Shown: positions 9,775-64,000 of the stretch, piece by piece
Numbering within the stretch: position 1 is the stretch's first letter
How the letters are laid out: each line of letters opens with the position of its first letter
DNA from: Dyella acidiphila
GTDB taxonomy: Bacteria > Pseudomonadota > Gammaproteobacteria > Xanthomonadales > Rhodanobacteraceae
Reading direction: 5' to 3'
Length of the DNA: 64,000 nucleotides
Assembly (NCBI RefSeq): GCF_014863405.1
Contig: NZ_JACZZA010000004.1
Location: 186,001 to 250,000 of the forward strand
Notes under the pieces: generated by a model
Database searches by the model: none
What the model was told of the DNA's origin: nothing
The model's input: the letters and a program-made list of their open reading frames with translations, nothing else
Program-made: the position numbers and the translations under genes

Positions 9775-10733
9775 GCAGGAGTGTTCTCGATCGCATCGAA
9801 CAGTAACCCGGCAATATTAAGCCCGAACTGCTGGTCCAGTTCGCGCACGCAAGTCGGCGATGTGACGTTGATCTCGGTCAGGTAGTCGCCGATCACGTCC
9901 AGGCCCACGAAGCGCAGGCCGCGGCGGCGCAGATCGGGGGCGACTTGGGCGGCGATCCAGCGGTCGCGCTCGCTCAGCGGCACGCCTTCGCCGCGGCCGC
10001 CTGCGGCGAGGTTGCCGCGGAATTCATCCCCCTGCGGGATGCGGGCCAGCGCATACGGCACCGGTTCGCCGTCGATCAGCAGGATGCGCTTGTCGCCGGC
10101 GCTGATCTGCGGAATGAATTTCTGCGCGATGGCGAACTGCCGCCCCTCGCCGTGCGCATCGCCGGCCAGCAGTGTCTCCAGCATGGAGTTGAGGTTTTTG
10201 TCGCCGGCCTTCACGCGGAAGATGCCGCGGCCGCCCATACCGTCCAGCGGCTTGAGCACCGCATCGCCATGCTCGGCCACGAAGGCGCGCAGCTCGGCGG
10301 GATCGCGCGCCACCAGGGTGGGTGCCATGCATTGCGGGAACTGGGTGGCGAACAGCTTCTCGTTGCAGTCGCGCAGCGCGCGCGGGTCGTTGATGACCTG
10401 CACGCCGGCGCGCTGGGCCGCTTCCAGCACCATGGTGTCGTAGATGAACTGGGCGTCGACCGGAGGGTCCTTGCGCATCAGCACCACGTCCAGCTCGCGC
10501 AGGTCGGTCCAGCGGGCCTCGCCCAGGGTGAACCAGCCGGTGGGGTCGTCCTTCACCGTCAGCGGGCGCAGGCTGGCCCATGGGGCGCCGTCGCGCAGGG
10601 CCAGGTTGCCCTGTTCCATGTAGTACAGCCGATGGCCGCGGCGGGCCGCCTCCAGCAGCATGGCGAAGGTGGTGTCCTTGGCGATCTTGATGGCGCCGAT
10701 GGGATCCATCAGCACGGCGACCGAACGGGGCAT
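9771..10733 (-). CDS. gshB: Glutathione synthase
   Basis: ATP-grasp enzyme that adds glycine to gamma-glutamylcysteine. 320 aa, starting MPRSVAVLMDPIGAIKIAKD, as in known GshB. The ATP-grasp core is visible as VLKPLDGMGGRGIFRV, and the C-terminal segment FVGLDVIGDYLTEINVTSPT is the family signature. The start at 10733 is chosen by homology; the frame is open to 10847 but the upstream residues are Arg/Pro-rich noise. It is the first gene of a gshB-tonB unit divergent from pilG. Confidence 0.96.
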   Translation of the reverse strand: MPRSVAVLMDPIGAIKIAKDTTFAMLLEAARRGHRLYYMEQGNLALRDGAPWASLRPLTVKDDPTGWFTLGEARWTDLRELDVVLMRKDPPVDAQFIYDTMVLEAAQRAGVQVINDPRALRDCNEKLFATQFPQCMAPTLVARDPAELRAFVAEHGDAVLKPLDGMGGRGIFRVKAGDKNLNSMLETLLAGDAHGEGRQFAIAQKFIPQISAGDKRILLIDGEPVPYALARIPQGDEFRGNLAAGGRGEGVPLSERDRWIAAQVAPDLRRRGLRFVGLDVIGDYLTEINVTSPTCVRELDQQFGLNIAGLLFDAIENTPA

Positions 10734-20774: not shown

Positions 20775-20867
20775 GAGTCTGGCATCGCTCAGTCACGTAT
20801 CGACATATGCTCCTTCGCTCTGCCTTGGCCTGCGGCCAAACAGCTTCCGGCGCGAGGTAACCGGGGT

Positions 20868-49566: not shown

Positions 49567-50088
49567 TCAATCCGCATCGGCGCAGCGCGCCGCATCCGCA
49601 GCAGTGGCGCGCGAGCCACGCACACGCCCACGCCGGGCGATCACCACGCTCAAGGCCTGCGCTGTATCGTGTCGCAGGCACAAGGTGAGCGTCTGATTGC
49701 TGTTGCCGACGGTGCCGTCGGTCTGGAAGCGAATGCCTTGCCCACTGCTGCTGACGATATTCAGCCGGCCCGAATACGGGCCGCCGCGGTACCAGGGCGA
49801 TCCATCCGCCTGTCCGGCATGGCCGCCATCGTGCGCGATCAGCCAGCCGCCGCTCCATGCGCCATCGGCATTGCAGCGTTGCATGTCGCGGCTAGGACAG
49901 AACAACAGCGCAACTTGCTCGTTCACCGCCAGATGACGCGCATGCGACAGTGCGTTGAGGTAATCGCTCTGCGCCACCGCCAGCTCCTGCCGCGCCAGCA
50001 AGTGCGCGAAAGCCGGTACGGCGGCCGCCGCAAGCACGGCCAGGATGGCCAGGGTCACGATCTGTTCGATCAGCCCGAAGCCCTTCAT
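49567..50088 (-). CDS. Type IV-like pseudopilin (GspH/FimT family)
   Basis: 173 aa with a short prepilin leader MKG-FGLIEQIVTLAILAVL: cleavage after Gly leaves Phe1 and the critical Glu5, followed by the hydrophobic assembly helix. The C-terminal globular domain has four Cys. Size and order match GspH/FimT minor pseudopilins. It stands alone here, far from any secretion or pilus operon, though it may feed either. An in-frame ATG at 50145 would give a 19-residue longer leader. Confidence 0.85.
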   Translation of the reverse strand: MKGFGLIEQIVTLAILAVLAAAAVPAFAHLLARQELAVAQSDYLNALSHARHLAVNEQVALLFCPSRDMQRCNADGAWSGGWLIAHDGGHAGQADGSPWYRGGPYSGRLNIVSSSGQGIRFQTDGTVGNSNQTLTLCLRHDTAQALSVVIARRGRVRGSRATAADAARCADAD

Positions 50089-50212
50089 GGCCGTGACTCC
50101 GGCAGGCGGGGCGCGGTTTACCGGTATGGCGCGATCGGATTTCATGGCAGCCCATGCTAGGCGGCCTCGCGGCAGCTTCCAGCTGCTGCGGGCCGGCCCG
50201 GCTGTCAGGTCC

Positions 50213-50233
50213 TGCTGACAACCCCTGTCAGCA
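50213..50233. promoter_or_regulatory. Inverted repeat in the divergent pseudopilin/uvrB promoter region
   Basis: TGCTGACA-N5-TGTCAGCA, 8-bp perfect arms, preceded by a half-site GCTGTCAG at 50201. It lies 43 bp before the uvrB start, in front of TTTAAAAT. It is a candidate operator, but it does not look like known LexA boxes. Confidence 0.4.
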
Positions 50234-50275
50234 CCGGGCATTTAAAATGCACGCTCAAGCCCGCAGAGTAAGCCC

Positions 50276-52312
50276 ATGACCGATCGCGACCGCTTCGAAC
50301 TCGTTTCCGATTACCAGCCCGCCGGCGACCAGCCCGATGCGATCCGGCGTCTGGTCGAAGGTTTTGACAATGGCCTGGCCGCGCAGACCCTGCTCGGCGT
50401 GACCGGCTCGGGCAAGACCTTCACCATCGCCAACGTCGTCGCACAGGTGCAGCGCCCGACCATCGTGCTGGCGCCGAACAAGACCCTGGCCGCGCAGCTG
50501 TATGGCGAGTTCAAGGAATTCTTCCCGCACAACGCGGTGGAGTACTTCGTCAGCTATTACGACTACTACCAGCCGGAGGCTTACGTCGTCGCGTCGGATA
50601 CGTTCATCGAGAAAGATGCCTCGATCAACGAGCATATCGAGCAGATGCGCCTGGCCGCCACCAAGGCGCTGCTGTCGCGCAAGGATTCCTTGATCGTCGC
50701 CACAGTATCGGCGATCTACGGCCTGGGCGATCCGGAGGATTACCTCTCGCTGCGCCTGATCCTGGCGCGCGGCGAGCGCATCGACCAACGCGCACTGATC
50801 CGCCAGCTCACCGAATTGCAATACACGCGCAACGAGATGGAACTGCGCCGCGGTACTTACCGCGTGCGTGGCGAGATCATCGATGTGTTCCCGGCCGAAT
50901 CGGAAACCGAGGCGCTGCGCATCGAGCTGTTCGACGGCGAAGTGGAAAACCTTGCAGTGTTCGATCCCCTTACCGGCGAAACCATCCGCAAGGTGCCGCG
51001 CTTCACGGTGTATCCGCGTACCCATTACGCCAGCACGCGCGAAAGCGTGCTCAACGCCATCGATACCATCAAGGAAGAATTGAAGGAAAGGCTGGAATAT
51101 CTCTACAAAGAGAATCGCCTGGTGGAAGCGCAGCGCCTGGACCAGCGCACCCGTTTCGACGTGGAAATGATGGCCGAAGTAGGCTATTGCCAGGGCATCG
51201 AAAACTACTCGCGCCACCTCACTCGCCGCGCGCCGGGCGAACCGCCGCCGACCTTGTTCGACTATCTGCCGGCGGATGCCTTGCTGGTGATCGACGAATC
51301 CCACGTCACCGTGCCGCAGCTGGGCGCGATGTACAAAGGCGACCGTTCGCGCAAAGAAACCCTGGTCGAATTCGGCTTTCGCCTGCCTTCGGCGATGGAC
51401 AACCGTCCACTGCGTTTCGAAGAATTCGAGCGCCGCGCACCGCGCAGCATTTTCGTTTCCGCCACGCCGGGCAAATACGAGCTGGAAAAATCCGGCGACG
51501 CCATCACCGAACTGGTGGTGCGCCCAACCGGCCTGATCGATCCGGAAGTGGAAGTGCGCCCCGTGCGCACCCAGGTCGACGATTTGCTGGGCGAAGCGAA
51601 AAAGCGCATCGCCATCGGCGACCGCGTGCTGGTCACCACCCTGACCAAGCGCATGGCGGAAAACCTCACCGAATACCTCAGCGAACACGATGTAAAAGTG
51701 CGTTACCTGCATTCGGATATCGAAACGGTGGAGCGCGTGGAAATCATTCGCGACCTGCGCCTGGGCGAATTCGATGTGCTGGTGGGCATCAACCTGTTGC
51801 GCGAGGGCCTGGACATGCCCGAGGTCTCGCTGGTGGCGATCCTCGATGCCGACAAGGAGGGCTTCCTGCGCTCCACCGGCTCGCTGATCCAGACCATCGG
51901 CCGCGCGGCGCGAAATGTACGCGGCAAGGCGATCCTCTACGGCGACGAAATCACCCGCTCGATGCGGGCGGCGATGGAGGAAACCAGTCGCCGTCGCGAA
52001 AAGCAGGTCGCCTGGAACGAGGCCCACGGCATCACCCCCAAATCGGTGGTGCGCCGGATCGCCGACATCATGGAGGGGGCGCGCAGCGAGGCCCCGGGCC
52101 GCGGCCGGGGCAAATCGTCTCGCGGCCGGGGCACCGCCATGGCGGTGGCCGAGGAGGCCGCCGACTACGCCGGCCTCAGCGCCGATCAGGCCGCCACCCT
52201 GATCAAGCGGCTGGAGGCGGACATGCGCAAGCACGCGGAAAACCTGGAATTCGAGGAGGCCGCCCGCCTGCGCGACCGGATCCACCAGCTGCGCGAACAG
52301 GCTTTGCGGTAG
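50276..52312 (+). CDS. uvrB: Excinuclease ABC subunit B
   Basis: 678-aa helicase-like damage-verification subunit of nucleotide excision repair. Walker [15 protein letters not shown], the beta-hairpin [15 protein letters not shown]-type [12 protein letters not shown], motif [10 protein letters not shown] and the C-terminal UVR motif ([20 protein letters not shown]) are all in place. A basic Gly/Arg patch (around 600-620) precedes the UVR motif. Start ATG 50276. The 3' end contains the -35 element of the tRNA-Val promoter. Confidence 0.98.
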
Positions 52313-52332
52313 CCAGGCGGATCGGCTAGACT
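52304..52332 (+). promoter_or_regulatory. Promoter for tRNA-Val
   Basis: TTGCGG (52304-52309), 17-bp spacer, TAGACT (52327-52332). The -35 overlaps the last codons of uvrB. Transcription would start about 25 nt before the mature tRNA at 52365. Confidence 0.6.
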
Positions 52333-52364
52333 ACGCGGCTCGCGCGGTACGCCGGGCGAGCTAT

Positions 52365-52439
52365 GGGCGGTTAGCTCAGCGGTAGAGCACTTCCTTGACA
52401 TGGAAGGGGTCACAAGTTCGATCCTTGTACCGCCCACCA
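52365..52439 (+). tRNA. tRNA-Val (anticodon GAC)
   Basis: 75-nt cloverleaf with acceptor arms GGGCGGT / ACCGCCC, D-loop TAGCTCAGCGGTAGAGCA, anticodon stem CTTCC / GGAAG with loop TTGACAT (anticodon GAC), T-loop GTTCGATCC and encoded CCA. Confidence 0.97.
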
Positions 52440-52501
52440 ATTTAAGCAGTGACTTGGTCTGGATCCGGTGTTTGACGGAACGGCGAGTACGAAAAGCTAC
52501 G

Positions 52502-52532
52502 AAAACCGCTCTGTAAAAAGGGGCGGTTTTTT
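52502..52532 (+). terminator. Intrinsic terminator downstream of tRNA-Val
   Basis: AAAACCGC, 13-nt loop, GCGGTTTT followed by TT. It can end the tRNA-Val transcript. Confidence 0.8.
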
Positions 52533-52588
52533 CGTTTTGGATGACAGCTTGGGCAACACCAGTACACCTAATGAAGTGAGATGCGCAA

Positions 52589-53965
52589 TCAGCCGGACGA
52601 TCGGCCCTCGATGCGCATGGCAGCGCGATTCACAGCCTCTTTCAGATGGCGCGCACGATCCTTGGCCCATTCGGCCCATTCGGGCGTGACTTCGTCATGA
52701 TCCGCTACAACCTCCCACACCTCGCGAGCGATGTTCATGGCTTCGCTATCGTCCACTTGCGGCGGCGCTTCCTTCATTAGTTCTGGAACGACTCCCGTTG
52801 TGGACGACGGCGCCCAGCGCATGGGGGCCATGTCATAGGCGGGTGCAACGGACAGCGGTGACTTGGCGTCGTTGGAAAGAAGGAACGACAGATTGCCCAT
52901 ATGCATATCGGTGTGCGCCATCAAATGCCCAATGTTGGCCAGGCGCTGTGTCCGCGCCACCTGTTCGGCATCGATGGCATTGCGCTGATACAAATATTCC
53001 ACTGCATTCACCCAGCCATTTTGCGGGCCGTTATATCCAAAGGTCTGCGCTAGCGAGCGCAATGAGGCCATGCCTTTGCGCCCGCGTTCGTTGATGCGAT
53101 CAAAGCGTGTTGTTTCCAGCCAGATACGATCTTGGTGGCGCCAGACCTGCGTTGGAGCAGCGCTCATGCCATGCAAGGTCATGACCTGCGCAACCATCCC
53201 CTCGGTCACCATGATGTCGCCCCACCGCCGGGCCGCAGGATCATGGGCGAGTGGTGGAGAAAATTTGACCAGCACTGAGCGCGGAGGCTGCCCCTTGCCG
53301 TCGTCGACCACCGCTGCAAACTTTGGCTGTTCGCCGTCGGCTGAGGCACCCACCATCACGCCGTTCAGTAGCTGATTGGCGAGCTCGGCATAGCGCTCGA
53401 ATCTGTTCTCTGCGAGCACTGCGGTGTCCGCGGCATCGGCTATGCGAGCGAGCCCGAGGTTGCCGCGCCAATCCCATGCTTCCTGCAGCGCCGCGGAGAT
53501 GACTTGATCATCCGTCCAGGCATTGGCATCTAAGGTCCAGCCGTGTGCTTGAGCGTGTTCGCGCACCCATGCACGTCCAAGGAAACCGGCCGGCCGGAAG
53601 GGCTCCAAATACCACGGCAAGCCCTGGAATACGCCGGGTGTCCCACTGCGTTCACCCAGCAGCATCCAGTCTGGTGCCTCAGCTGTTGGTTCCACCCACC
53701 ATTGACCTGCCGCGAGAGCGACCAGTGTGGCAACGGTGTGGTCGCGGCCTTGCTCGTCCCGGAGCAGGATGGGTACAGGCGCTATCTCCGGCCGGCGCAA
53801 CGCGTACGCGCTCCGCTTGGTGTGCCCCAGGCGCAGCACATGGGCGTCGGTTTTGATGGCGCGCTGCATAGTTCGCTCAGAGCCGATCTCATCGGCCACG
53901 TATTTGAGCAGCTCCTTCGAAGGCAAGGCTCCCCAGCGGGCTAGGATTTCGGTGATGGCGGACAT
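52589..53965 (-). CDS. yjjJ: HipA-family kinase, YjjJ type (orphan toxin-like)
   Basis: 458 aa. The N-terminal winged-helix-like segment (1-60, LARWGALPSKELLKYVADEI) is typical of YjjJ, not of HipA itself. The kinase part follows: P-loop region near VMVGASADGEQPKF (203-216), Lys234 (VLVKFSPP), catalytic loop HTDMHMGNLSF with Asp353 and Asn358, and metal-binding Asp378 in APAYDMAPM. HipA kinases phosphorylate aminoacyl-tRNA synthetases and cause growth arrest. No antitoxin gene is adjacent, as for E. coli YjjJ. Lower GC than neighbours, next to a tRNA: likely acquired. Confidence 0.88.
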   Translation of the reverse strand: MSAITEILARWGALPSKELLKYVADEIGSERTMQRAIKTDAHVLRLGHTKRSAYALRRPEIAPVPILLRDEQGRDHTVATLVALAAGQWWVEPTAEAPDWMLLGERSGTPGVFQGLPWYLEPFRPAGFLGRAWVREHAQAHGWTLDANAWTDDQVISAALQEAWDWRGNLGLARIADAADTAVLAENRFERYAELANQLLNGVMVGASADGEQPKFAAVVDDGKGQPPRSVLVKFSPPLAHDPAARRWGDIMVTEGMVAQVMTLHGMSAAPTQVWRHQDRIWLETTRFDRINERGRKGMASLRSLAQTFGYNGPQNGWVNAVEYLYQRNAIDAEQVARTQRLANIGHLMAHTDMHMGNLSFLLSNDAKSPLSVAPAYDMAPMRWAPSSTTGVVPELMKEAPPQVDDSEAMNIAREVWEVVADHDEVTPEWAEWAKDRARHLKEAVNRAAMRIEGRSSG

Positions 53966-54477
53966 AGGTGCGTGACGGTAGATGGCTGACGAAAAATCCT
54001 TGTAGGTCAGAAGTCTATGAATTTTTTGTCGGAAGACGTGTGGAGTATGGTAATTTTATTCAGCTTTCATTTAACTTTCTGGGCCGGCCGAAACACTTCG
54101 AAATGAGCGTCGAGAAATCTCCTGGTGCTCTTATCCAGTCCTGATCACGGCCGAGGGCCTCGGCCCTTTCGGTTTACGGTTGAGGGGTTCTTTTAGGGCG
54201 CTCTGGCAGTCTTTCTATTGCATCAGCGAACTTCTTCGTTTCGCCGGCTCGTATGTATCGCCCGGATTCTTTTGTGCGCGCATGCCTTTATGGTGTGACA
54301 CAAGGTCGGCGGCTGCCCGTCAAGAATTATTGTTACTGATCGCATGTCGTGGTCTTGCGCGCCGCACTGCACGTGCAAGGCGCACACATTCATATTCGCT
54401 TGAGATTGCTTCAGACCGGTCATTCCGACCCGGACAATGCGCGGCCTTCCCGCCAAGTCCTATCTCCGGAATCCGTC
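53966..54477. other. AT-richer intergenic region between yjjJ and fliE
   Basis: 512 bp with no credible gene, visibly richer in A/T than the rest (for example around 54010-54080). It holds a hairpin GGCCGAG-GGC-CTCGGCC (54149-54165) followed by CTTT, possibly a terminator. Flag-2-type clusters usually have a sigma-54 activator gene here. I see none, nor a sigma-54 site with correct spacing. Confidence 0.6.
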
Positions 54478-54795
54478 ATGAAGATCGAGCTTTCCAGTCC
54501 GATGCTCCAAGCCATGCTTGCTACGCGTACCACGCTTGCTCCCGGTGTGGCGGAGCAGGGCGACGGGACTGGCGGCACCGGCTTTGCGCAAGTCATGAAA
54601 TCGGCGATCTCCCAGGTCGACGGGCAGCAGCATGCCGCCAACGACACTACCGCCGCGGTGGAAAGTGGGCAGAGCGATGACCTGATCGGCGCCATGCTCA
54701 GCAGCCAGGAGGCCAATCTGTCGTTCTCGATGATGATGCAGGTGCGCAACAAGCTGATGTCCGCGTTCGACGACATCATCAAGATGCAAGTCTGA
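54478..54795 (+). CDS. fliE: Flagellar hook-basal body protein FliE
   Basis: 105-aa linker between MS-ring and rod. The conserved C-terminal half is normal (SSQEANLSFSMMMQVRNKLM then DDIIKMQV), with the usual variable N-terminus (FAQVMKSAIS). The start ATG is 54478. First gene of fliEFGHI. Intact, although the flagellar cluster it belongs to is broken. Confidence 0.93.
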   Translation: MKIELSSPMLQAMLATRTTLAPGVAEQGDGTGGTGFAQVMKSAISQVDGQQHAANDTTAAVESGQSDDLIGAMLSSQEANLSFSMMMQVRNKLMSAFDDIIKMQV

Positions 54796-54810
54796 CGGGT
54801 GCGCTGAGTC

Positions 54811-56433
54811 ATGTTTGCGAAACTCAAAACGATGGCGGTGGAGGCCGGCAAGAGCGTGAAGCTGCCGTCGTCGTCCACACTTGCCAAATTGCTGCCGCTG
54901 CTGGTGCTGGCGATCGGCCTCACTGCACTGGCGATGATGTTCATGTGGCGCAGCGAAGCCGGCTACAAGCCGTTGTTCGGTGCGAACGAAAGCGTCGCTG
55001 CGGCCGACACCATGGCCGTGCTCGATGGGGAAAAAATTCCGTACCGCATTCATCCGCAGACCGGCCAGGTGCTGGTGCCCGAAGCCAAGCTCGGCCAGGT
55101 GCGCATGCTGCTCGCCGCCAAAGGCGTGGTTGCCAAGCTGCCCGAAGGGCTGGAGCTGGTCGACAAAAGCGATCCGCTGGGCGTCAGCCAGTTTGTGCAG
55201 GATGTGCGCTTTCGGCGGGGCCTGGAAGGCGAGCTGGTCAAGAGCATCGCCAGCCTGGATTCGGTCGAATCGGCGCGCGTGCATCTGTCGATCGCCAAGT
55301 CATCGTCATTCATCCTCAGCGACGGCGAGAAAAGTTCGGCCTCCGTGATGCTCACACTCAAGCCCGGGCGCAAGCTGGGCAAGGAGCAGATCAGCGCAAT
55401 TGTCGGCCTGGTTTCCGGCAGCGTCGCCAATCTCGAGCCGGGGCGGGTCACGGTGATCGACCAGCACGGCAATTATCTTTCCTCCTCGATCGATCCCAGC
55501 GATCCGGCCGCCACCAGCGAAGGCGAACTGGGCGCGCGAGTGCGCGAGGATACCTTGCACAACATCCAGGAGTTGCTGGCCCAAAGCATCGGCAATGGCA
55601 ATTTCAAGGCCAGCGTCGCCGTCGATACCGACAACGATCGCGTCGAGGAAACGCGCGAGCAGTATGGCGAAGCGCCGCATATTTCCAATGAAGCAACCCG
55701 CGGCGAGCAGGACAATGGCGAAATTGCGCTGGGCGTGCCCGGTTCGCTCTCCAATCGGCCGCCTCAGGACAAGAGCAGCGATCCGGCCGGCGGCAAGGAC
55801 AAGCCTGGTCCGCATTCGCAGAAGAATGCAATCAGCCGGCAATACGTGTACGACCGCAACGTCGTGCAGATCAAGCACAGTCCCACCCGCGTAAAACGGG
55901 TCAGTGTCGCGGTGGTGTTGAGCAATACGGCAGCACCGGATGGCAAGGCCTGGACGCCGGCGCAGCTGCGCAATATCGAAACCATCTTGCGCAGCGGCAT
56001 CGGCCTGGATGAATCGCGCAAGGATCAGCTCAGCGTATCGGCCATCGATTTCCACGATCCCAAGCCGGAAGCGCTGCTGCCGTGGTGGAAGCAACCGGAG
56101 AACATGCTGACCATGGGCGGTTACGCTGGCTACGCGCTGCTGGCCTTGCTGGTATTCCTGTTGGTATTGCGTCCGCTGCTGAAGATCCTGCGCCAATGGG
56201 TCGCCAGTCAGTACCCAGTGGCGATCGCCGCGGATACCGCGGATGGCAACTTTGATGCAGCGCTGCCGGCAGAGCAGCGAACCGCTTCCTCTCCGTTGGA
56301 CGAAGACGAACTGCAGTTGCCGCCGGTCGGATCCAGTGCGGATGTACTGGTTGAACACCTGCGATTGCTTGCTGTGCAGGCTCCCGAGCGTGTCGCTGAC
56401 GTGATCAAACCCTGGATCCGCAAACATGGATAA
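54811..56433 (+). CDS. fliF: Flagellar MS-ring protein FliF
   Basis: 540 aa. Helix 1 about 28-48, RBM1/RBM2 ring domains (GYKPLFGANESVAAADTMAV; VQDVRFRRGLEGELVKSIAS; RVHLSIAKSSSF), an RBM3/beta-collar region, helix 2 about 432-452, and a C-terminal FliG-binding helix (APERVADVIKPWIRKHG). Length and domains are complete. fliE lies 15 bp upstream; the stop overlaps fliG by 8 bp. Confidence 0.95.
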   Translation: MFAKLKTMAVEAGKSVKLPSSSTLAKLLPLLVLAIGLTALAMMFMWRSEAGYKPLFGANESVAAADTMAVLDGEKIPYRIHPQTGQVLVPEAKLGQVRMLLAAKGVVAKLPEGLELVDKSDPLGVSQFVQDVRFRRGLEGELVKSIASLDSVESARVHLSIAKSSSFILSDGEKSSASVMLTLKPGRKLGKEQISAIVGLVSGSVANLEPGRVTVIDQHGNYLSSSIDPSDPAATSEGELGARVREDTLHNIQELLAQSIGNGNFKASVAVDTDNDRVEETREQYGEAPHISNEATRGEQDNGEIALGVPGSLSNRPPQDKSSDPAGGKDKPGPHSQKNAISRQYVYDRNVVQIKHSPTRVKRVSVAVVLSNTAAPDGKAWTPAQLRNIETILRSGIGLDESRKDQLSVSAIDFHDPKPEALLPWWKQPENMLTMGGYAGYALLALLVFLLVLRPLLKILRQWVASQYPVAIAADTADGNFDAALPAEQRTASSPLDEDELQLPPVGSSADVLVEHLRLLAVQAPERVADVIKPWIRKHG

Positions 56434-57469
56434 CGCGATCAACGAATTGTCTGCCGATATGGCTGGCATGCAATCTCCCGCCGTGGTGCTGAGTTCGATC
56501 GAGCGTGCCGCAATCACCTTGCTGAGCATGGGCGAAGAAGCCGCCGCGGCCGTGTTGCGCTGCCTTTCGCGCGAAGAACTGCTCGATGTCACTCTGGTGA
56601 TGGCGCGTATGAGCGGCGTGAAGCTGGACGCCGTGCAGCACACCTTGTCAGGTTTTTTCGATGCCTTTCGGGAGCAGAGCGGCGTGCGTGGCGCATCGCG
56701 CCAGTTCCTGCAGCGCTCGCTGGACATGGCGCTTGGCAGCGTGGTCGCCAAGAATGTGCTTAGTCATATCTACGGCGATGTGATCGGCCCCAAACTGGCG
56801 CGCCTGCAGTGGGCGCAGCCGCGCTGGCTGGCCGAATGCCTGGCGCGCGAACACGTGCGCATGCAAGCGATGTTCCTGTCGCTGCTGCCGCCGGAACAGG
56901 CCAGTCAAGTGCTGCATGCATTGCCGGCCGATAGTCGCGATCTGGTGCTGCTGCAGATCGCAAAGCTGAAAGAAATCGATTACGAGCTGCTGCACGACTT
57001 GGAAGCAGTGGTCGATGCCTGCATTGAAAATCTCGGCAAGCAGGGCACGGCCGTGGAGGGTGTGCGCCAAGCGGCGGATATCATCAACCGCTTGCCGGGC
57101 GACCGCGCCCGGGTGGTGGAGCTATTGCGTGCGCACGATCCGGACGTGGTGTCGGAGGTGGAAAGCCGCATCTACGATTTTCCGATTCTTGCCTACCAGA
57201 ACGACGCCACCGTCGCCGCCATTCTCGACCGCGTCCCATTCGAGCAATGGGGTATTGCGCTCAAGGGCGCCGATCCGAAGATTCGCGATGCGCTGGCGCG
57301 GGCAATGCCCTCCCGCCAGGTGCAGGCCTTCGACGACATATTGCGGCGTACGCCAGCCACCCCACTCAGCCGGATTGAAGAAGCGCGCAACGACATCATG
57401 GCGCAGCTGCGCGAGATGTCGGCCGAAGGCGAAATCGCCCTGCAATTGCTGGCTGAGGACGTGGTGTGA
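56426..57469 (+). CDS. fliG: Flagellar motor switch protein FliG, divergent
   Basis: 347 aa. N-, middle and C-terminal ARM-like domains can be traced (ERAAITLLSMGEEAAAAVLR; LPPEQASQVLHALPADSRD; FEQWGIALKGADPKIRDALA). The EHPQ motif that contacts FliM is EHVR here (142-145). The C-terminal torque helix keeps charged Arg and Asp residues (MPSRQVQAFDDILRR) but differs from the usual sequence. Otherwise intact. Divergence suggests a secondary or lateral-type flagellar system rather than decay. Confidence 0.88.
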   Translation: MDNAINELSADMAGMQSPAVVLSSIERAAITLLSMGEEAAAAVLRCLSREELLDVTLVMARMSGVKLDAVQHTLSGFFDAFREQSGVRGASRQFLQRSLDMALGSVVAKNVLSHIYGDVIGPKLARLQWAQPRWLAECLAREHVRMQAMFLSLLPPEQASQVLHALPADSRDLVLLQIAKLKEIDYELLHDLEAVVDACIENLGKQGTAVEGVRQAADIINRLPGDRARVVELLRAHDPDVVSEVESRIYDFPILAYQNDATVAAILDRVPFEQWGIALKGADPKIRDALARAMPSRQVQAFDDILRRTPATPLSRIEEARNDIMAQLREMSAEGEIALQLLAEDVV

Positions 57470-58122
57470 TGACCGTCTATCGCCGCTATCACTTTCCGCC
57501 GCTGACCCGTTTATTGCTTGGCGATGCGGAGGCGCCGTCCGAGTCGGCGCCGGCCGATCCAGCGTTGACGGAAGAAGTACTGGAGGAATACCGCAAGGCC
57601 GGCTATGCGGAGGGCCTTGCGGACGGTCTTGCCGAGGGCGGCAAGGCTGGCAGGGAGGGCGCGGCGCGTGCAGCAAAGGAAGCGCGCGCCGCGCTGGATG
57701 CGCTAAGTGGGCCATTCGAAGCGCTAATGGCAGGCTTTGGCCAGCTGCAGAAAGATCTTCGCACCGATCTGCGTGAACAAGTCGCCGGCCTGGTAGAACA
57801 GGTCGCCAGGCAGGTGATCCGCACCGAGCTCGAAGCGCAACCAGGCCAGTACCTGGCCCTTATCGACGAGGCGCTGGCGGAACTGCCTGCACCCTCGGAC
57901 AGCGTGCAGGTACGCCTGCATCCGGATGACTATCAGCGCGTGCTGGACGCGGCCCCGCGCCGCGCCAAGCGCTATGGCTTGGTACCCGATCCGCAATTGG
58001 AGCCCGGCGAGTGCCGCATCAGTGCCGGCGAGCGCGAGCTCGATGTCGGCTGTGCGCAGCGGCTGGTCCTGTGTATGGAGCAGGTCCGCAAACTGCTCGG
58101 CGAGCAGGAGCAGAGTGAATGA
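57469..58122 (+). CDS. fliH: Flagellar assembly protein FliH
   Basis: 217 aa; regulator and stator-like partner of the export ATPase FliI. A GxxxG-like run sits in the N-terminal region (YAEGLADGLAEGGKAGREGA), then a long helix and a C-terminal FliI/V-ATPase-E-like domain (VRLHPDDYQRVL). Start ATG 57469 overlaps the fliG stop (TGATG); a GTG at 57466 is the alternative. Overlaps fliI by 4 bp. Confidence 0.88.
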   Translation: MTVYRRYHFPPLTRLLLGDAEAPSESAPADPALTEEVLEEYRKAGYAEGLADGLAEGGKAGREGAARAAKEARAALDALSGPFEALMAGFGQLQKDLRTDLREQVAGLVEQVARQVIRTELEAQPGQYLALIDEALAELPAPSDSVQVRLHPDDYQRVLDAAPRRAKRYGLVPDPQLEPGECRISAGERELDVGCAQRLVLCMEQVRKLLGEQEQSE

Positions 58123-58952
58123 GCAATCCACTGCGCGGACTTAAGTTGGACGACGTTCCGGTCGCTCGTGAAATAGGAAGGCTCCATGGCGTAACCGGCA
58201 TTCTGCTTGAAGCAACCGGCTACGCATTCGAGACCGGACAGCGCACGCGCATTGAAACGACTTCCGGCGAGTGGCTGGACGCGCGCGTGGTGGGCTTCCG
58301 CAACAACGTGTCGTATCTCATGCCTTTCCGCAAATCCCATGGCTTGGTGGCCGGCGCTCGCGTCGTGGCCGATACGAGCGAGCGCCAGCTGCAGATCGGC
58401 CCGGCCTGGCGGGGGCGCATCATCGACGGGCTAGGTACGCCGCTCGATGGGCTTGGCCCGTTGCTCGGCGAGTATCCCCTCGACCTGCATCCGCCGAGGA
58501 TCAACCCGATGAAAAAGCAGCCCGTTTCGGGTGTGCTCGACGTCGGCGTGCGGGCGATCAACGGCATGCTTACGCTCGGTCGCGGCCAGCGCGTAGGGCT
58601 GTTCGCAGGCAGCGGCGTCGGCAAGAGCGTGCTGCTGGGCATGATCACGCGTCAGGCCGAAGCCGATGTGGTGGTGGTGGGCCTGATCGGCGAGCGCAGC
58701 CGCGAGGTACGTGAGTTCATCGAGCACTCACTCGGGCCAGAGGGCCTGCGCAATGCCGTAGTGGTAGTTGCGCCGGCAGACGACTCGCCATTGATGCGCC
58801 TGATGGCCACAGAACTGTGCCATGCGATCGCCGCGTATTACCGTGATAGCGGCAGCAACGTATTGCTGCTGGTCGATTCACTTACGCGGTATGCCATGGC
58901 GCAACGGGAGGTGGCGCTGGCCCTCGGCGAGCCGCCGGCTACGCGTGGTTAT
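58119..58952 (+). pseudogene. fliI: FliI export ATPase, 3'-truncated by rearrangement
   Basis: The first 278 residues are normal FliI: Walker A GSGVGKSVLLGM, the GLIGERSREVREFIE motif, Walker B NVLLLVDSLTRYAMAQRE and LALGEPPATRGY. Family homology then stops at 58952, where PPSVFAxLP should follow. About 160-180 C-terminal residues are lost. The frame continues to 59525 over antisense flgC and flgB, adding 189 meaningless residues. The product would lack the catalytic-core end and C-terminal domain and should be inactive. Confidence 0.92.
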
Positions 58953-59192
58953 CGGGTGATCGGGCTCGTAGCGCGCATTGAGCGGCTCGTCGCTGCTGAT
59001 CACGTCGAGTACCTGCACACGTGCGCCTGCGCCGTCGAACACGCTGGCGAACACCGGCTTGCGTGCGCGGTAGGCGCTTTGTTCGGTGCCGGTGGTATTG
59101 GCGTTGGCGAGGTTGCTGGCCACGGTATTGAGGCGTACGGTCTGTGCGCTCATGGCGGAACTGGCGATTTGGGCGATGCTTTTGAAGCTCAT
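58953..59192 (-). pseudogene. flgC: FlgC proximal rod protein, 3'-truncated by the same junction
   Basis: The first 80 residues are FlgC: IAQIASSAMSAQTVRLNTVA, SNLANANTTGTEQSAYRARK, ending at LNARYEPDHP. Normal FlgC has about 135 residues. The frame runs on to 58878 through antisense fliI for 24 foreign codons. It starts 2 bp after the flgB stop. Confidence 0.92.
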
Positions 59193-59194
59193 GC

Positions 59195-59557
59195 TCAGGT
59201 GCTCCCATTGATCGCGGCGGACAGGCCTTTCAGCTTCATGTTGAGGAAGGTCAGGCTGGTCTGGAAATCGACGGTGTTCTGTGCGAACTCGGCCTGTTCG
59301 GTGGCGAGATCCACGGTGTTGCCGTCTTGCGACGCGCCGCTGGGGACGCGGTATTGGATCTCGTCGGACTCGAAGCGCAAGGCCGACGAAGAGCCCTGTG
59401 CGGCTTCGCTCAGGCGCGCGCGGAAATCGATATCGTGCGCCTTGAAGCCTGGCGTGTTTTCGTTGGCGAGATTGGAGGCGATGATTTCGCCGCGTTCAGC
59501 GCGCAACTTCAGTGCGGCAGGGTGAACGCCCAGCGCCTGCTCGAGACTCAGTCCCAT
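59195..59557 (-). CDS. flgB: Flagellar basal-body rod protein FlgB
   Basis: 120 aa. N-terminal ALKLRAERGEIIASNLANEN followed by TPGFKAHDIDF is the rod-family signature. The C-terminal AEFAQNTVDFQTSLTFLNMK is the conserved rod helix. Slightly short, but both ends are present. It is oriented toward fliI and divergent from flgA, as in enterobacterial and lateral systems. The downstream flgC is truncated. Confidence 0.92.
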   Translation of the reverse strand: MGLSLEQALGVHPAALKLRAERGEIIASNLANENTPGFKAHDIDFRARLSEAAQGSSSALRFESDEIQYRVPSGASQDGNTVDLATEQAEFAQNTVDFQTSLTFLNMKLKGLSAAINGST

Positions 59558-59618
59558 CGTGGATCATCCTGGTTGGGAAATACGAAGGGATGCGATGGTA
59601 GGAGCGGCTGTGGCGAAG

Positions 59619-59677
59619 CTTGAGGAATCTAAAAGCACCTTAAAGCACCGCGCGGCTTGAGCAATCTAAAAGCATCC
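59619..59677. repeat. Short direct repeat between flgB and flgA
   Basis: CTTGAG-AATCTAAAAGCA-CCT occurs at 59619-59640 and 59656-59677 (period 37 bp, two mismatches). It lies in the divergent flgB/flgA promoter region. It may bind a regulator, or be a relic. Confidence 0.45.
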
Positions 59678-59749
59678 TGAGCGTTGCATGCGGATCGGTG
59701 CCGGCATAATTCGCGGCCGATCTCACAGCATAGGTAATAGGTGTAGCCG

Positions 59750-60475
59750 ATGTGTTCTTTGCGCTTGCGTTTCGGGCTGGCCATGGCCGCCGGTCTGCTG
59801 GCCCCGATGCACGCCATGGCCGGCCAGGTGCAGGATGTGGTTGCCAGCGCTGCGCGCACCTGGCTGGTCGATTGGGCGCGGCAGGCAAATTGGCCTGATC
59901 CGGAGATTGATGTAGTGGTGTTGCCGCTGCGTCGCCCCGAGCCGTCATGCGGGCAGTCCTTGAAGGTGATGCCGGCGGATACGTCTCAGTTGGCGCGGCT
60001 GCGTTTTTCGGCGCGTTGCCCGGATGGCGCGTCCGAAACGTATACGGTGCGCGCTGCTGTGCATAGCAAGGCTTTGGCTGTGATCAGCGCCGTCCCCGCC
60101 GGCAAGCCGATCGACAAAAGCGATGTGCAACAAGTGGATGTCAATGTGGCATTGACGCCGGATGCCGTACGCGATCCTGCCGAGGTTGCCGGGCGTGCCA
60201 GCCAGCGCCCGCTGCGTGCGGGGCAGGTGGTGCAGGCGCGGTTTCTGAAGGCGGGTGCGAGTGTGCGGCGCGGCCAGCTCGTGCAGATCGTTTCGCGGCA
60301 ACAGCATTTTCAGGTCAGCACGCAGGGTACGGCGATGCAGCGTGGGGAAGGAAATGAGCTGGTGCGCGTACGCGTCGATGCGAGCGGCAAGTCGATCCTC
60401 GCATGGGTGGTCGGGCCCGGCGTGGTGGAGCCGATGACGGGCGACAGCAAGGCCCCCGGACATCCCGAGGATTGA
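59750..60475 (+). CDS. flgA: Flagellar P-ring assembly chaperone FlgA
   Basis: 241 aa with a signal peptide (cleavage near MHAMAG) and the SAF/FlgA domain in the second half (KPIDKSDVQQVDVNVAL, SQRPLRAGQVVQARFL, RRGQLVQIVSRQQHFQVSTQ and GKSILAWVVGPGVVE). It assists FlgI ring assembly in the periplasm. Oriented away from flgB. No flgM or flgN follows; the next gene is unrelated. Confidence 0.9.
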   Translation: MCSLRLRFGLAMAAGLLAPMHAMAGQVQDVVASAARTWLVDWARQANWPDPEIDVVVLPLRRPEPSCGQSLKVMPADTSQLARLRFSARCPDGASETYTVRAAVHSKALAVISAVPAGKPIDKSDVQQVDVNVALTPDAVRDPAEVAGRASQRPLRAGQVVQARFLKAGASVRRGQLVQIVSRQQHFQVSTQGTAMQRGEGNELVRVRVDASGKSILAWVVGPGVVEPMTGDSKAPGHPED

Positions 60476-60562
60476 CGGCTGCGCGGCGCTTCGCCGCAAA
60501 CGCTGACGGCAGCCGCGGATCCTCGTACCATCGCCGGGTCATCCCCACCGCCCGGAGCCGCC

Positions 60563-61009
60563 ATGACCTATCTATGGATCAAGAGCCTGCATGTGCTGTT
60601 CGTGATGGCCTGGGTGGCTGCGGTGTTCTATTTGCCGCGCATCCTGGTGAATATCGCCGAGGCGGGAGCGGAGCCGGCGGTCAAGGCGAGGCTGGAGCTG
60701 ATGGGGCTGCGGCTATATCGCTTCGGGCACATGATGTTTGGCATGGCCTTTCTGTTCGGGCTCACGCTGTGGCTGGGTGCCTACGTTTTTCCGAACAGCT
60801 TGCCGCATTGGGGCGAGATGGGCTGGCTGCATGCCAAGCTGGGGTTGGTCGTAGTGCTGCTGGCGTATTTTGTGTGGAGCGGCCGGTTGGTCAAGCGCAG
60901 CGTGCAGGGTGGCGTGTTGCCGCCGGCACGTACGCTGCGGCTGCTCAATGAGTTGCCGGTGTTTCTGTTGCTGGGTGTGATCTTTCTCGCGATTGCCAAG
61001 CCTTTTTGA
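60563..61009 (+). CDS. CopD/HemJ-like membrane protein
   Basis: 148 aa, four helices. HVLFVMAWVAAVFYLPRILV and GWLHAKLGLVVVLLAYF carry the conserved His, Arg and Lys of the HemJ (protoporphyrinogen oxidase) and CopD families. HemJ is usual in Alphaproteobacteria and several Gammaproteobacteria; copper uptake is the alternative. RBS GGAG before the ATG. Confidence 0.78.
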   Translation: MTYLWIKSLHVLFVMAWVAAVFYLPRILVNIAEAGAEPAVKARLELMGLRLYRFGHMMFGMAFLFGLTLWLGAYVFPNSLPHWGEMGWLHAKLGLVVVLLAYFVWSGRLVKRSVQGGVLPPARTLRLLNELPVFLLLGVIFLAIAKPF

Positions 61010-61025
61010 GCATATGGTTCTGGGG

Positions 61026-61120
61026 CTTGGGTTGCCTCGGATTTGATCTGGGGTGACCCGGTGATGCTTGGCGGTTTCGGTGGAGATTTGTCGGGTTACG
61101 CTGCGCTAGCCCAACCTACG
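61026..61120. repeat. Decayed REP doublet
   Basis: Right unit (61088-61120) is TCGGGTTACGCTGCGCTAGC-type, one or two changes from the 8869-8901 copy; the left unit is a mutated CCCCGGA-type arm. It lies in the gap before the epimerase stop. Confidence 0.6.
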
Positions 61121-61125
61121 GTGTG

Positions 61126-62136
61126 TCAGGTGAGGTGGTGGTAGTCGCGATACCAGGCGACGAAACGCTTCACGCCTTCTTCGATGCTGGTGTTTGGTGC
61201 GTAGCCGACATCGCGGCGCAAGGCCGACACGTCGGCCCAGGTATCGGGCACGTCGCCGGGCTGCATCGGTAACAAGCGCTTTTCCACGCTGCGGCCCAGG
61301 TTCTGTTCCATCAGTTCGATAAAGCGCATCAGCTGCACGGGCTGATCGTTGCCGATGTTGTAGAGACGATACGGTGCGCTGGACGTGCCGGGGTTGGGCT
61401 GTAGCGGATCGTAGGCGGGATCGGGCTGCGCGACATGGTCGAGCGTGCGGATCACGCCTTCGACGATATCGTCGATATAGGTGAAATCGCGGCTGTGGTT
61501 GCCGTAGTTGAAAACGTCGATCGGTTCGCCGCGCACGATGCGGTCGGCGAACAGGATCGGCGACATGTCCGGTCGGCCCCAAGGGCCATATACGGTGAAG
61601 AAACGCAGCCCCGTGGTGGGCAGGTTGTAGAGATGGCTGTAGGTGTGCGCCATCAGCTCGTTGGCCTTCTTGCTGGCGGCGTACAGGCTGACCGGATGAT
61701 CGACCGCATCTTCCACCGCAAACGGCAGTTTGCGGTTGGCGCCATAGACCGAGCTGGACGAGGCATACACCAGGTGTTCCACCTTGCCGTAGCGGCAGGC
61801 TTCCAGCACGTTAACGAAGCCGACCAGATTGCTTTGCGCGTAGACCTGCGGATTTTTCAGTGAGTAGCGCACGCCGGCCTGGGCGGCGAGATTGACCACG
61901 CGCTGCGGCTGGAAATCCTGGAACGCCTGCTGCACGGACGCGGCATCGGCGAGATCGGCGCGCCGGTGGGTGTATCCGGCGTGGGTGGCAAAACGCGCCA
62001 GGCGCGCTTCTTTCAGTGCAGGGTCGTAGTAGTCGTTGTGATTGTCGATGCCGAGCACTTCATCGCCACGGGCCAGCAGGCGTTCGGTAAGAGCGGCGCC
62101 GACAAAACCGGCCGCACCGGTGACGAGAATGCGCAT
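61126..62136 (-). CDS. NAD-dependent epimerase, probable UDP-glucuronate 4-epimerase
   Basis: 336-aa extended short-chain dehydrogenase. NAD loop VTGAAGFVGAALTERLL, catalytic Ser-Tyr-Lys in ASSSSVYGAN and SLYAASKKANELMAHTYSHL, and RFFTVYGPWGRPDMSPILFA followed by the GEPIDVFNYG segment, which is typical of UDP-glucuronate 4-epimerases (LpsL/CapI). Makes UDP-galacturonate for LPS or capsule. Start 62136. The long open frame beyond it to 62313 is not coding. Confidence 0.9.
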   Translation of the reverse strand: MRILVTGAAGFVGAALTERLLARGDEVLGIDNHNDYYDPALKEARLARFATHAGYTHRRADLADAASVQQAFQDFQPQRVVNLAAQAGVRYSLKNPQVYAQSNLVGFVNVLEACRYGKVEHLVYASSSSVYGANRKLPFAVEDAVDHPVSLYAASKKANELMAHTYSHLYNLPTTGLRFFTVYGPWGRPDMSPILFADRIVRGEPIDVFNYGNHSRDFTYIDDIVEGVIRTLDHVAQPDPAYDPLQPNPGTSSAPYRLYNIGNDQPVQLMRFIELMEQNLGRSVEKRLLPMQPGDVPDTWADVSALRRDVGYAPNTSIEEGVKRFVAWYRDYHHLT

Positions 62137-62306
62137 CGAAAAATCCCTGAGATGATTCCCGGCTGGCGCCGGGCGACTGCACATTATTGTAGCGGCAGCG
62201 GGCGGTGCTGAATTGACAGTGGCGGCGTCCTGATCTAGCGTTGCACACCTCAATAATCCCCGGAGACAAGGTGGCCCGCGCCGAAGGCGCCGGTCGAGCG
62301 TGTGAC

Positions 62307-62333
62307 ATGGCAACTATCCGCCTCCAACACTGA
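62307..62333 (+). CDS. Possible 8-aa thrS leader peptide
   Basis: ATG...TGA encodes MATIRLQH, 24 bp before the terminator. It has one Thr and one Ile codon only and no clear ribosome binding site, so a leader role is possible but weak. It could also be chance. Confidence 0.25.
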   Translation: MATIRLQH

Positions 62334-62357
62334 CTCCTGCCACGCCTTGGTCTTCCC

Positions 62358-62382
62358 AAAGGGCGCCGCGTGGTGCCCTTTT
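62358..62382 (+). terminator. Intrinsic terminator in the thrS leader (candidate attenuator)
   Basis: AAAGGGCGCC, loop GCGT, GGTGCCCTTT, then TT-G-TTTT. A 10-bp stem with one G-T pair, 20 bp upstream of the thrS ATG. Either attenuation of thrS or termination of a transcript from upstream. Confidence 0.75.
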
Positions 62383-62402
62383 TGTTTTCAGAGAAAGCTC
62401 CC

Positions 62403-64000
62403 ATGATCGAAATCACGCTACCCGACGGCAGCAAGCGCCCCTTCGACCATCCGGTCACGGTGCAGGATGTGGCCGCCTCCATCGGCGCCGGCCTGGCCAA
62501 GGCGACCCTGGCCGGCAAGGTCGACGGCAAACTGGTGGATGCCAGCTTCCCGATCGGTCACAACGCCAGTCTTGAAATCGTCACGGAAAAAAGCCCCGAG
62601 GCGCTGGAAATTCTGCGCCACTCCACCGCCCATCTGCTGGCGCAGGCCGTGCAGCGCTTGTACCCCGGCGCGCAGGTGACGATCGGTCCGGTGATCGACA
62701 ACGGCTTTTATTACGACTTCGCCTACGAGCGCCCCTTCACGCCGGACGATCTGCTCAAGATCGAAGCCGAGATGGAGAAGATCGTGAAGGAGCAGCTGCC
62801 GGTGACGCGCAGCGTGAAATCGCGCGACGACGCGGTAACGTTTTTCCGCGGCCTGGGCGAGGAATACAAGGCCGAGATCATCCAAAGCATTCCGGCCAAC
62901 GAAGAGCTGTCACTGTATACGCAGGGCGAATTCACCGACTTGTGCCGCGGCCCGCACGTGCCGAACACCGGCAAGCTGCGCGCGTTCAAGCTGATGAAGG
63001 TGGCCGGTGCGTATTGGCGCGGCGATTCCAACAACGCCATGCTTACCCGCATCTACGGCACGTCCTGGCTCAACGACAAGGACCTGAAGGCCTACCTGCA
63101 CCAGCTGGAAGAGGCGGAAAAGCGCGACCATCGCAAGATCGGCAAGGCGCTGGACCTGTTCCACCAGCAGGAAGAAGCGCCCGGCATGGTGTTCTGGCAT
63201 CCCAATGGCTGGGCCATCTGGCAGGTGGTGGAGCAGTATGTGCGCGGCGTCTACCGCAGCAGCGGCTACCAGGAAGTGCGCGGTCCGCAGATCATGGACG
63301 TGAGCCTGTGGAAGAAGTCCGGCCACTGGGACAACTACCAGGAAAACATGTTTTTCACGGAATCGGAAAAGCGCACCTATGCGCTCAAGCCGATGAACTG
63401 TCCCGGCCACGTGCAGATCTACAACACCAGCCTGCACAGCTATCGCGACCTGCCGATCCGCTACGGTGAGTTCGGCGGCTGCCATCGCAACGAGCCCTCG
63501 GGTGCGCTGCACGGCATCATGCGCGTGCGCGCTTTCACGCAGGACGACGGTCACGTCTTCTGCACGGAAGAGCAGATTGAATCGGAAGTTACGGCGTTCC
63601 ATCAGCAGGCCATGAAGGTGTATGCCGATTTCGGCTTCGACGACATCGCGTTGAAAATCGCCCTGCGCCCGGACAAGCGCATCGGCAGCGACGAGGTGTG
63701 GGATCGCGCCGAAGACGCCCTGCGCGCCGCGCTGCATGCGGCCGGGGTGGAATGGGAGGAGCTGCCGGGTGAGGGCGCGTTCTACGGCCCCAAGATCGAG
63801 TACCACATGAAGGACTCGATCGGCCGTGCCTGGCAGGTGGGCACCATGCAGATGGATTTCATGATGCCCGAGCGCCTGGGCGCCGAGTACGTGGACGAGC
63901 ACAGCCAGCGCCGGCACCCGGTCATGCTGCACCGGGCCATCGTGGGCTCGATGGAGCGCTTTATCGGCATCCTGATCGAGCACCATGCCGGCAATCTGCC
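62403..64000 (+). CDS. thrS: Threonyl-tRNA synthetase, partial (C-terminus beyond window)
   Basis: The first 532 residues are visible, cut at the right edge; full-length ThrRS is about 640. TGS domain [20 protein letters not shown], editing-domain motifs [11 protein letters not shown] and [11 protein letters not shown] (zinc-like His/Cys), class II motif 1 near [15 protein letters not shown], motif 2 [19 protein letters not shown] with [12 protein letters not shown], and the start of motif 3 ([20 protein letters not shown]). The terminator at 62358-62382 lies in its leader. The rest of the thrS-infC-rpmI-rplT operon is likely to follow. Confidence 0.98.

Follow-up and report, generated by a model that had tools for sequence, protein, structure and literature searches.

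A truncated lateral-type flagellar gene island in Dyella acidiphila, probably left by a single internal deletion

Gene content of the locus

The flagellar locus described here lies in a window of 64,000 nucleotides, the whole stretch of DNA that was analyzed, which corresponds to positions 186001-250000 of contig C23 in a 28-contig, 5.07-Mb genome. Six flagellar genes (fliE, fliF, fliG, fliH, flgB, and flgA) are intact frames, in agreement with an earlier note on this sequence, and are accompanied by the 5' parts of fliI and flgC. For uvrB, thrS, epimerase, NAD synthase, sucCD, and rimK, the gene names used throughout are presumptive, having been assigned from the look of the sequences and not by a family search. 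The features are, in window coordinates:

50276-52312, plus strand: uvrB, open reading frame of 678 aa, left chromosomal neighbour of the island
52365-52439, plus strand: tRNA-Val(gac), found by ARAGORN, left island edge, at the same place in the congeners G003 and G009
52589-53965, minus strand: gene for a HipA-like protein (Pfam HipA_C), between tRNA-Val and fliE
54478-54795, plus strand: fliE, intact (Pfam FliE), 72% amino acid identity to G003
54811-56433, plus strand: fliF, intact (Pfam YscJ_FliF and YscJ_FliF_C), 74% amino acid identity to G003
56426-57469, plus strand: fliG, intact (Pfam FliG_N, FliG_M, and FliG_C)
57466-58122, plus strand: fliH, intact (Pfam FliH)
58119-58953, plus strand: fliI', first 278 codons, with the rest of the ATPase domain and the C-terminal domain lost (Pfam ATP-synt_ab, positions 1-137 of 213)
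58951-58953, no strand: probable deletion junction, three bases (ATC) that the two parent genes share, by base-by-base comparison with fliI and flgC of G003
58951-59192, minus strand: flgC', first 80 codons, with the C-terminal domain lost (Pfam Flg_bb_rod only)
59195-59557, minus strand: flgB, intact (Pfam Flg_bb_rod), 70% amino acid identity to G003
59750-60475, plus strand: flgA, intact (Pfam ChapFlgA), stop codon at the right island edge
60563-61009, plus strand: gene for a UPF0093 membrane protein (Pfam UPF0093), right chromosomal neighbour

The truncated genes fliI' and flgC' abut tail to tail on opposite strands at 58951-58953. That FliI homology runs to residue 278 and FlgC homology over 80 residues, on opposite strands, had been read from the sequence in the earlier note and is confirmed by Pfam and by comparison with G003, whose intact orthologues have 451 aa (FliI) and 132 aa (FlgC, with a Flg_bbr_C C-terminal domain in Pfam). 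The note had also described the join as having no gap and no shared bases. The genes do meet without a gap, but three bases, ATC, fit fliI and flgC alike: compared base by base with G003, which serves as a stand-in for the true parent, the window tracks fliI through 58953 and flgC from 58951 onward. An overlap of at least three bases would arise by chance in about 6% of joins, given the base composition, and so says little on mechanism. The longest word common to both break points within 60 bp in G003 has six bases, although the true parent may differ, and a deletion mediated by a long repeat was set aside, as far as G003 can show, for lack of any longer common word near both end points. DNA secondary structure at the join was also discarded as an explanation (folding energy z of -0.57, with 54 of 200 shuffles as good). 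The frame of fliI' stays open across the join and yields a frame of 468 aa (58119-59525) that runs antisense through flgC' and most of flgB.

A congener with intact fliI and flgC in a split island

In a DNA search of 61 genomes, the sole outstanding match besides the window itself was the congener G003, whose genome is one closed contig of 3.52 Mb. In G003, the match to fliI stands at 81% (C1:2157003-2157815, minus strand) and that to the flgC-flgB-flgA stretch at 72% (C1:1742854-1744028, minus strand), both in the same orientation relative to the window. A single blastn match (72%, window 58951-61010) runs from flgC' through flgA into the UPF0093 gene. Outward of flgA, G003 has the UPF0093 gene, epimerase, and thrS as in the window and in the same orientation. 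Outward of fliE follow tRNA-Val and uvrB, again as in the window except for the HipA-like gene, for which a tblastn search of the G003 interval found no homologue at the same place (chance-level matches with E values of at least 2.2). Window positions 52440-54480 share with the tRNA-Val-fliE interval of G003 only 49 bp at fliE and two chance-level words.

The island of G003 is present in two parts that lie 413 kb apart, with fliI and flgC intact; flgB-flgL point toward the fli block and fliE-flhA toward the flg block. It holds 34 flagellar genes by assignment. Thirty open reading frames were scanned against Pfam in three sets of ten, and 27 had hits, one of them an autotransporter. All ten frames of the first set were hit (flhA, flhB, fliR, fliQ, fliP, fliN, fliM, fliC, motB, motA), nine of the second (a sigma factor taken as fliA, fliL, fliK, fliS, fliD, fliJ with a match below the curated Pfam cut-off, fliI, flgC, flgD), and eight of the third (flgE, flgF, flgG, flgH, flgI, flgK, flgL, and the autotransporter). 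The fliT-like, the flgJ-like, and one 348-aa frame gave no Pfam hit; flgJ and fliT were named from position and similarity to betaproteobacterial clusters, and flgA, flgB, and fliE-H of G003 after their homologues in the window. The two G003 stretches that have no counterpart in the window measure 12.4 and 16.7 kb, 29.1 kb in sum, with the autotransporter as the last gene counted.

The neighbourhood of the two halves points to the split as the younger state. In G003, NAD synthase adjoins the inner end of the flg half, a block of rimK and tRNA-Gly adjoins the inner end of the fli half, and sucCD lies about 4 kb beyond uvrB. In the genome of the window, NAD synthase and the rimK/tRNA-Gly block are found elsewhere, on contigs C27 and C11, respectively, and C27 also carries sucCD, at a distance of about 5 kb from NAD synthase. 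Because NAD synthase and sucCD are about 5 kb apart in this genome and separated in G003, the split in G003 looks derived. This placement of NAD synthase, rimK, and sucCD, together with the 14 cluster-free sites described below, suggests that the G003 chromosome was rearranged at the island and that the contiguous order is older. Deletion of 413 kb from a G003-like order was rejected as the source of the window's arrangement: 20 kb were sampled at either end of that interval, and genes from both samples turned up on C21 and C11 of the window's genome, so the window does not derive from such a loss.

A fliI match of 69-72%, presumably marking the primary flagellar cluster, occurs in 15 other genomes of the genus and is absent from G003, in which the only fliI match besides the lateral one is at 64% (DNA similarity of one gene). 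By this sequence comparison, the split lateral-type set may be the only flagellum of G003.

Insertion at an otherwise cluster-free site

When window positions 50000-64000 were compared with 16 genomes of the genus, the matches to uvrB and UPF0093 lay 54-5270 bp apart in all 14 other congeners, as computed from the ends of the listed matches, and a search for this type of FliF at E ≤ 1e-80 was negative in each of these 14. In four of them (G009, G015, G014, and G005), frame starts in the gap between uvrB and UPF0093 revealed no flagellar gene. Homology with the same four resumes on the right at the stop codon of flgA (60475-60493) and on the left ends at or shortly after tRNA-Val, latest at 52532 in G009; the island edges were aligned with G009, G005, and G015. 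With 14 of 14 congeners free of the cluster and of this FliF, the cluster is an inserted island, and the insertion is at one place common to the window's genome and G003. Neither the 398 genomes of the order nor the 233 of the family that were searched yielded an island both intact and contiguous, and FliF at E ≤ 1e-80 occurs in two of the 233 family genomes, the window's and G003.

A possible decayed fragment of a phage-type integrase lies near tRNA-Val at the island edge in G003 (C1:2163022-2163225). The 67-aa frame next to tRNA-Val scores with Phage_integrase at E 7.9e-4, below the Pfam cut-off, and an overlapping longer frame has no hit. An integrase-driven island was not adopted as an explanation, given this below cut-off score and nothing similar at the window's copy.

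Relationship to betaproteobacterial lateral flagella

At E below 1e-200, three of the 398 sampled genomes of the order encode this type of FliF: G003, G265, and the genome of the window. The contig of G265 is identical to one of Pseudoxanthomonas taiwanensis. At E ≤ 1e-60, 81 of the 398 encode a FliF of some kind, the other 78 being at 32-38% identity. The best foreign FliF proteins, among the 80 of 223 loci retained from a scan of named genome contigs, come from Burkholderia dolosa, Caballeronia, Pseudoxanthomonas taiwanensis, Ralstonia, and Jeongeupia (58-63%). In the clusters of B. dolosa, Caballeronia, Ralstonia, and Jeongeupia, FliF has 58-62% amino acid identity to the window and FliI 72-80% to G003. 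FliF and FliI of G003 share 54-62% and 72-80% with these four clusters versus 29% and 53% with the cluster on contig C11 of the window's genome, and are thus nearer to lateral-type systems than to that genome's own primary system. On these similarities, the window cluster is nearest to betaproteobacterial lateral flagella; a putative lateral flagellum is described for B. dolosa in excerpts of PMC5773237.

The order fliE-F-G-H-I-J-D-S-K-L-A is common to G003, Caballeronia, B. dolosa, Ralstonia, and Jeongeupia. It is followed by motAB in three of the four betaproteobacterial clusters, the Ralstonia contig stopping before, and fliT was detected only in Caballeronia and Ralstonia among the four. 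Matches to the betaproteobacterial fliI and flgC cover almost the whole of both genes and show no break like the window's. Unlike in the inward-facing arrangement of G003, flgB..L of Caballeronia and B. dolosa are co-directional with fliE..motB, and flgA is divergent; flgI is co-directional in Jeongeupia too and on another contig in Ralstonia. From the co-directional flg genes of Caballeronia and B. dolosa it follows that the flg block had changed its direction or its place before the lineages of the window's genome and G003 diverged. The full gene set of such a system, with its own sigma factor, motAB, and flagellin, is present in G003 and missing from the window, which is a remnant and not a working lateral flagellar locus.

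The missing genes and other flagellar sets in the genome

The earlier note had expected the far side of the cluster to be lost, and searches of the genome bear this out. DNA searches with the two G003 stretches and a search with the rod family revealed no near copy of the lost genes in the window's genome, only weaker paralogues. Likewise, no orphan 3' end of fliI or flgC, which the note had proposed to look for, turned up among the scored candidates (40 of 270 and 40 of 220 first-look candidates for the two queries, respectively). G003 1744029-1760000 gave 93 listed matches. Those to flagellar genes were at 66-69%, apart from a 44-bp piece at 86%; non-flagellar ones included NAD synthase at 82%, which lies outside the cluster, and pieces on C3 at 68-70% in a non-flagellar gene of G003. 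G003 2140001-2157003 gave 14 listed matches, among them flhA at 75% over 743 bp, other flagellar parts at 68-77% in C11, C7, and C27, and tRNA-Gly stretches at 92% and 80%. With the exception of the 44-bp piece, the best flagellar matches listed for both queries were thus 77% over 135 bp and the 743 bp of flhA. At C23:288854, which matches the second query at 68%, there is a motAB pair with 32-38% amino acid identity. A lateral-type export gate was not found in the window's genome among the matches listed for the second query.

The rod family PF00460 had ten hits in the window's genome, six on C11, two on C7, and two in the window (flgC' and flgB). As flgF and flgG of G003 score at E 1.6e-6 and 7e-11, this search should have picked up a lateral copy of either gene; flgE scores weakly (E 7e-4), so that its absence is judged from the DNA search.

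Two kinds of repeated sequence were noticed on the way. A short repeat of about 40-60 bases, at about 10100-10160 of the query from the G003 flg block, occurs at dozens of places on many contigs of the window's genome. A 270-bp stretch between fliQ and fliP of G003 is 81% similar to C11:958842-959111, a place that does not belong to the flagellar cluster of that contig. A 70-bp part of the same stretch is 76% similar to C23:206785 (window about 20785-20854); the stretch is perhaps a small repeat element.

Protein comparison located a separate flagellar cluster on C11. Its region at 841.6-893.9k matches 25 of 36 query proteins, 34 of which are flagellar, at 25-53% amino acid identity, and we presume from these matches that it is the separate primary flagellar cluster of the genome. 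A third flagellar set (G000:C7:57001-77000, G000 being the window's genome) is only distantly related to both others and has 28% (FliF), 45% (FliI), and 38% (FlgI) amino acid identity to the lateral set. It matches the queries flhA, flgF, flgG, flgI, flgC, fliF, fliI, flgD, flgE, fliN, fliP, and fliA, with FliF and FlgE confirmed by Pfam. By protein comparison, C27 carries a flhA/fliI-like pair.

Deletion as the probable origin of the head-on join

The comparisons establish, as the earlier note had recognized, a broken secondary flagellar cluster that is cut inside fliI and flgC (Pfam; G003 comparison). We consider it very probable that one internal deletion in an acquired lateral-type island, with end points in flgC and fliI, made this layout. 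Because G003 keeps both outer junctions in the same orientation together with intact fliI and flgC, the join in the window is best read as a deletion. On this reading, uvrB/tRNA-Val and UPF0093-epimerase-thrS would have flanked an ancestral lateral-type island whose two halves pointed at each other (flgA< flgB..L> <flhA..fliE). A single deletion from flgC codon 80 to fliI codon 278 would then have removed the intervening genes and joined the two 5' parts, fliI' and flgC', tail to tail with no inversion needed, presumably by recombination with little or no homology at the join. The deletion would measure about 29 kb if the ancestral content was like that of G003, a length that is a guess from G003, and the contiguous ancestor is reconstructed rather than seen, the island of G003 being split. 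We infer such an ancestor, a single event of about this size, and a loss of function.

The earlier note had instead proposed that an inversion broke both fliI and flgC and that the far side was lost later. From the gene order of Caballeronia and B. dolosa (fliE..motB> <flgA flgB..L>), such an inversion does give fliE-I' <flgC' <flgB flgA>. In G003, however, flgB-L already face inward without any break in fliI or flgC, and the flgA-UPF0093 and fliE-tRNA-Val/uvrB junctions are the same as in the window. The flanks of the window's join are thus joined in their existing orientation, as in G003, and an inversion at fliI and flgC was rejected. The inversion model requires two events plus the independent arrival of flgA beside UPF0093, and we regard it as highly unlikely; the two steps of inversion and later loss collapse into one deletion event. 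Some rearrangement did form part of the island's history, only not at the fliI'/flgC' join.

The join could also be a contig chimera or a misassembly, given that the genome is a draft of 28 contigs and that no second genome among the 61 searched, the window's own included, has this join. Yet the two flanks are ordered and oriented as they should be at a single chromosomal locus. The assembly is listed as 99.97% complete, and among the scored candidates its other contigs did not yield the missing pieces. The contig that carries the join is 300 kb long, and its nearer end is about 55 kb away. An assembly error is therefore unlikely, its chance in our estimation being small.

Fate of the remnant

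Flagellum assembly requires flhA, flhB, fliP, fliQ, fliR, and genes for hook, filament, and motor. As the remnant (fliE-H, fliI', flgC', flgB, and flgA) is without export gate, hook, filament, motor, and the switch genes fliM and fliN, it should not be able to make a flagellum. Six intact frames, and dN/dS ratios to G003 of 0.08-0.33 (NG86, eight genes or gene parts), would fit a remnant that is kept by selection, with FliE, FliF, FliG, FliH, FlgA, FlgB, or the 468-aa FliI chimera in another role. Pairwise dN/dS, however, blends the time before and after the deletion, dS is high (0.84-1.88), and a lateral-type export gate is missing among the DNA matches listed for the window's genome. Retention by selection thus seems to us very improbable. 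We give still less credence to the more specific idea of an active remnant, in which the intact ring genes for FliF and FliG, or the 468-aa chimera of half of FliI with antisense flgC/flgB sequence, are expressed and retained for a task other than flagellum building. Three neighbour genes have dN/dS ratios to G003 of 0.03-0.10 (NG86).

Relative-rate counts speak against retention with two of four outgroups, where the window's genome evolved faster, and are about equal with the other two. Unique changes in the window's genome and in G003 numbered 144 and 107 with Caballeronia (chi2 5.5), 118 and 74 with Ralstonia (chi2 10.1), 111 and 109 with B. dolosa (chi2 0.02), and 84 and 92 with Jeongeupia (chi2 0.36), in 26 gene-by-outgroup comparisons that included flgA, flgB, and flgC' only with Caballeronia and B. 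dolosa. Relaxed selection since the deletion was therefore not adopted as an explanation of these mixed counts; with two outgroups showing an excess and two showing none, they neither date the deletion nor demonstrate such relaxation.

Parallels to other lost flagellar loci

A comparable scar is the lfhA/lafU (fhiA/mbhA) deletion of the Flag-2 locus in Escherichia, Shigella, and Citrobacter (excerpts of PMC6993521 and PMC3032704), the remnants of which are named fhiA and mbhA in strains K-12 and B (PMC3032704, in excerpt). As far as these excerpts go, the likeness to the Dyella locus extends to loss en bloc, both end points inside flagellar frames, retention of the outer parts, and a separate primary flagellum. 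In the window, both end points are likewise in flagellar frames, the intervening locus is gone, and the outer flanks are in place. The two differ in that the window keeps eight flagellar genes or gene parts versus two in the Flag-2 scar described there, and that its ends are in fliI and flgC. In addition, direct repeats are reported at the Flag-2 deletion end points of Escherichia in the excerpted text of PMC6993521, in contrast to the three shared bases, judged from G003, at the window's join. Its host, as placed by way of G265, belongs to the order of Pseudoxanthomonas, whereas the excerpts place the Flag-2 scar in Escherichia, Shigella, and Citrobacter.

The scar looks real and fairly ordinary, such decay being already known from E. 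coli. A limited search of the open-access literature, with the genus name guessed, found no report on this locus. The locus is a clean case of an acquired second flagellum lost outside Enterobacterales, and it illustrates that two genes meeting head-on from opposite strands are no proof of an inversion. All three loci with this FliF are disturbed, the window being deleted inside, G003 split, and P. taiwanensis cut after fliG, which fits a picture in which such islands reach this order and rarely last, three loci being few.

In P. taiwanensis, the lateral-type genes fliE-fliF-fliG lie on a contig of 7075 bases and end after fliG, with genes for phage head completion and a large terminase further along. 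The only flgI match of this genome is 46% to the lateral type. The three genes are possibly a second, independent remnant, or an artefact of the short contig.
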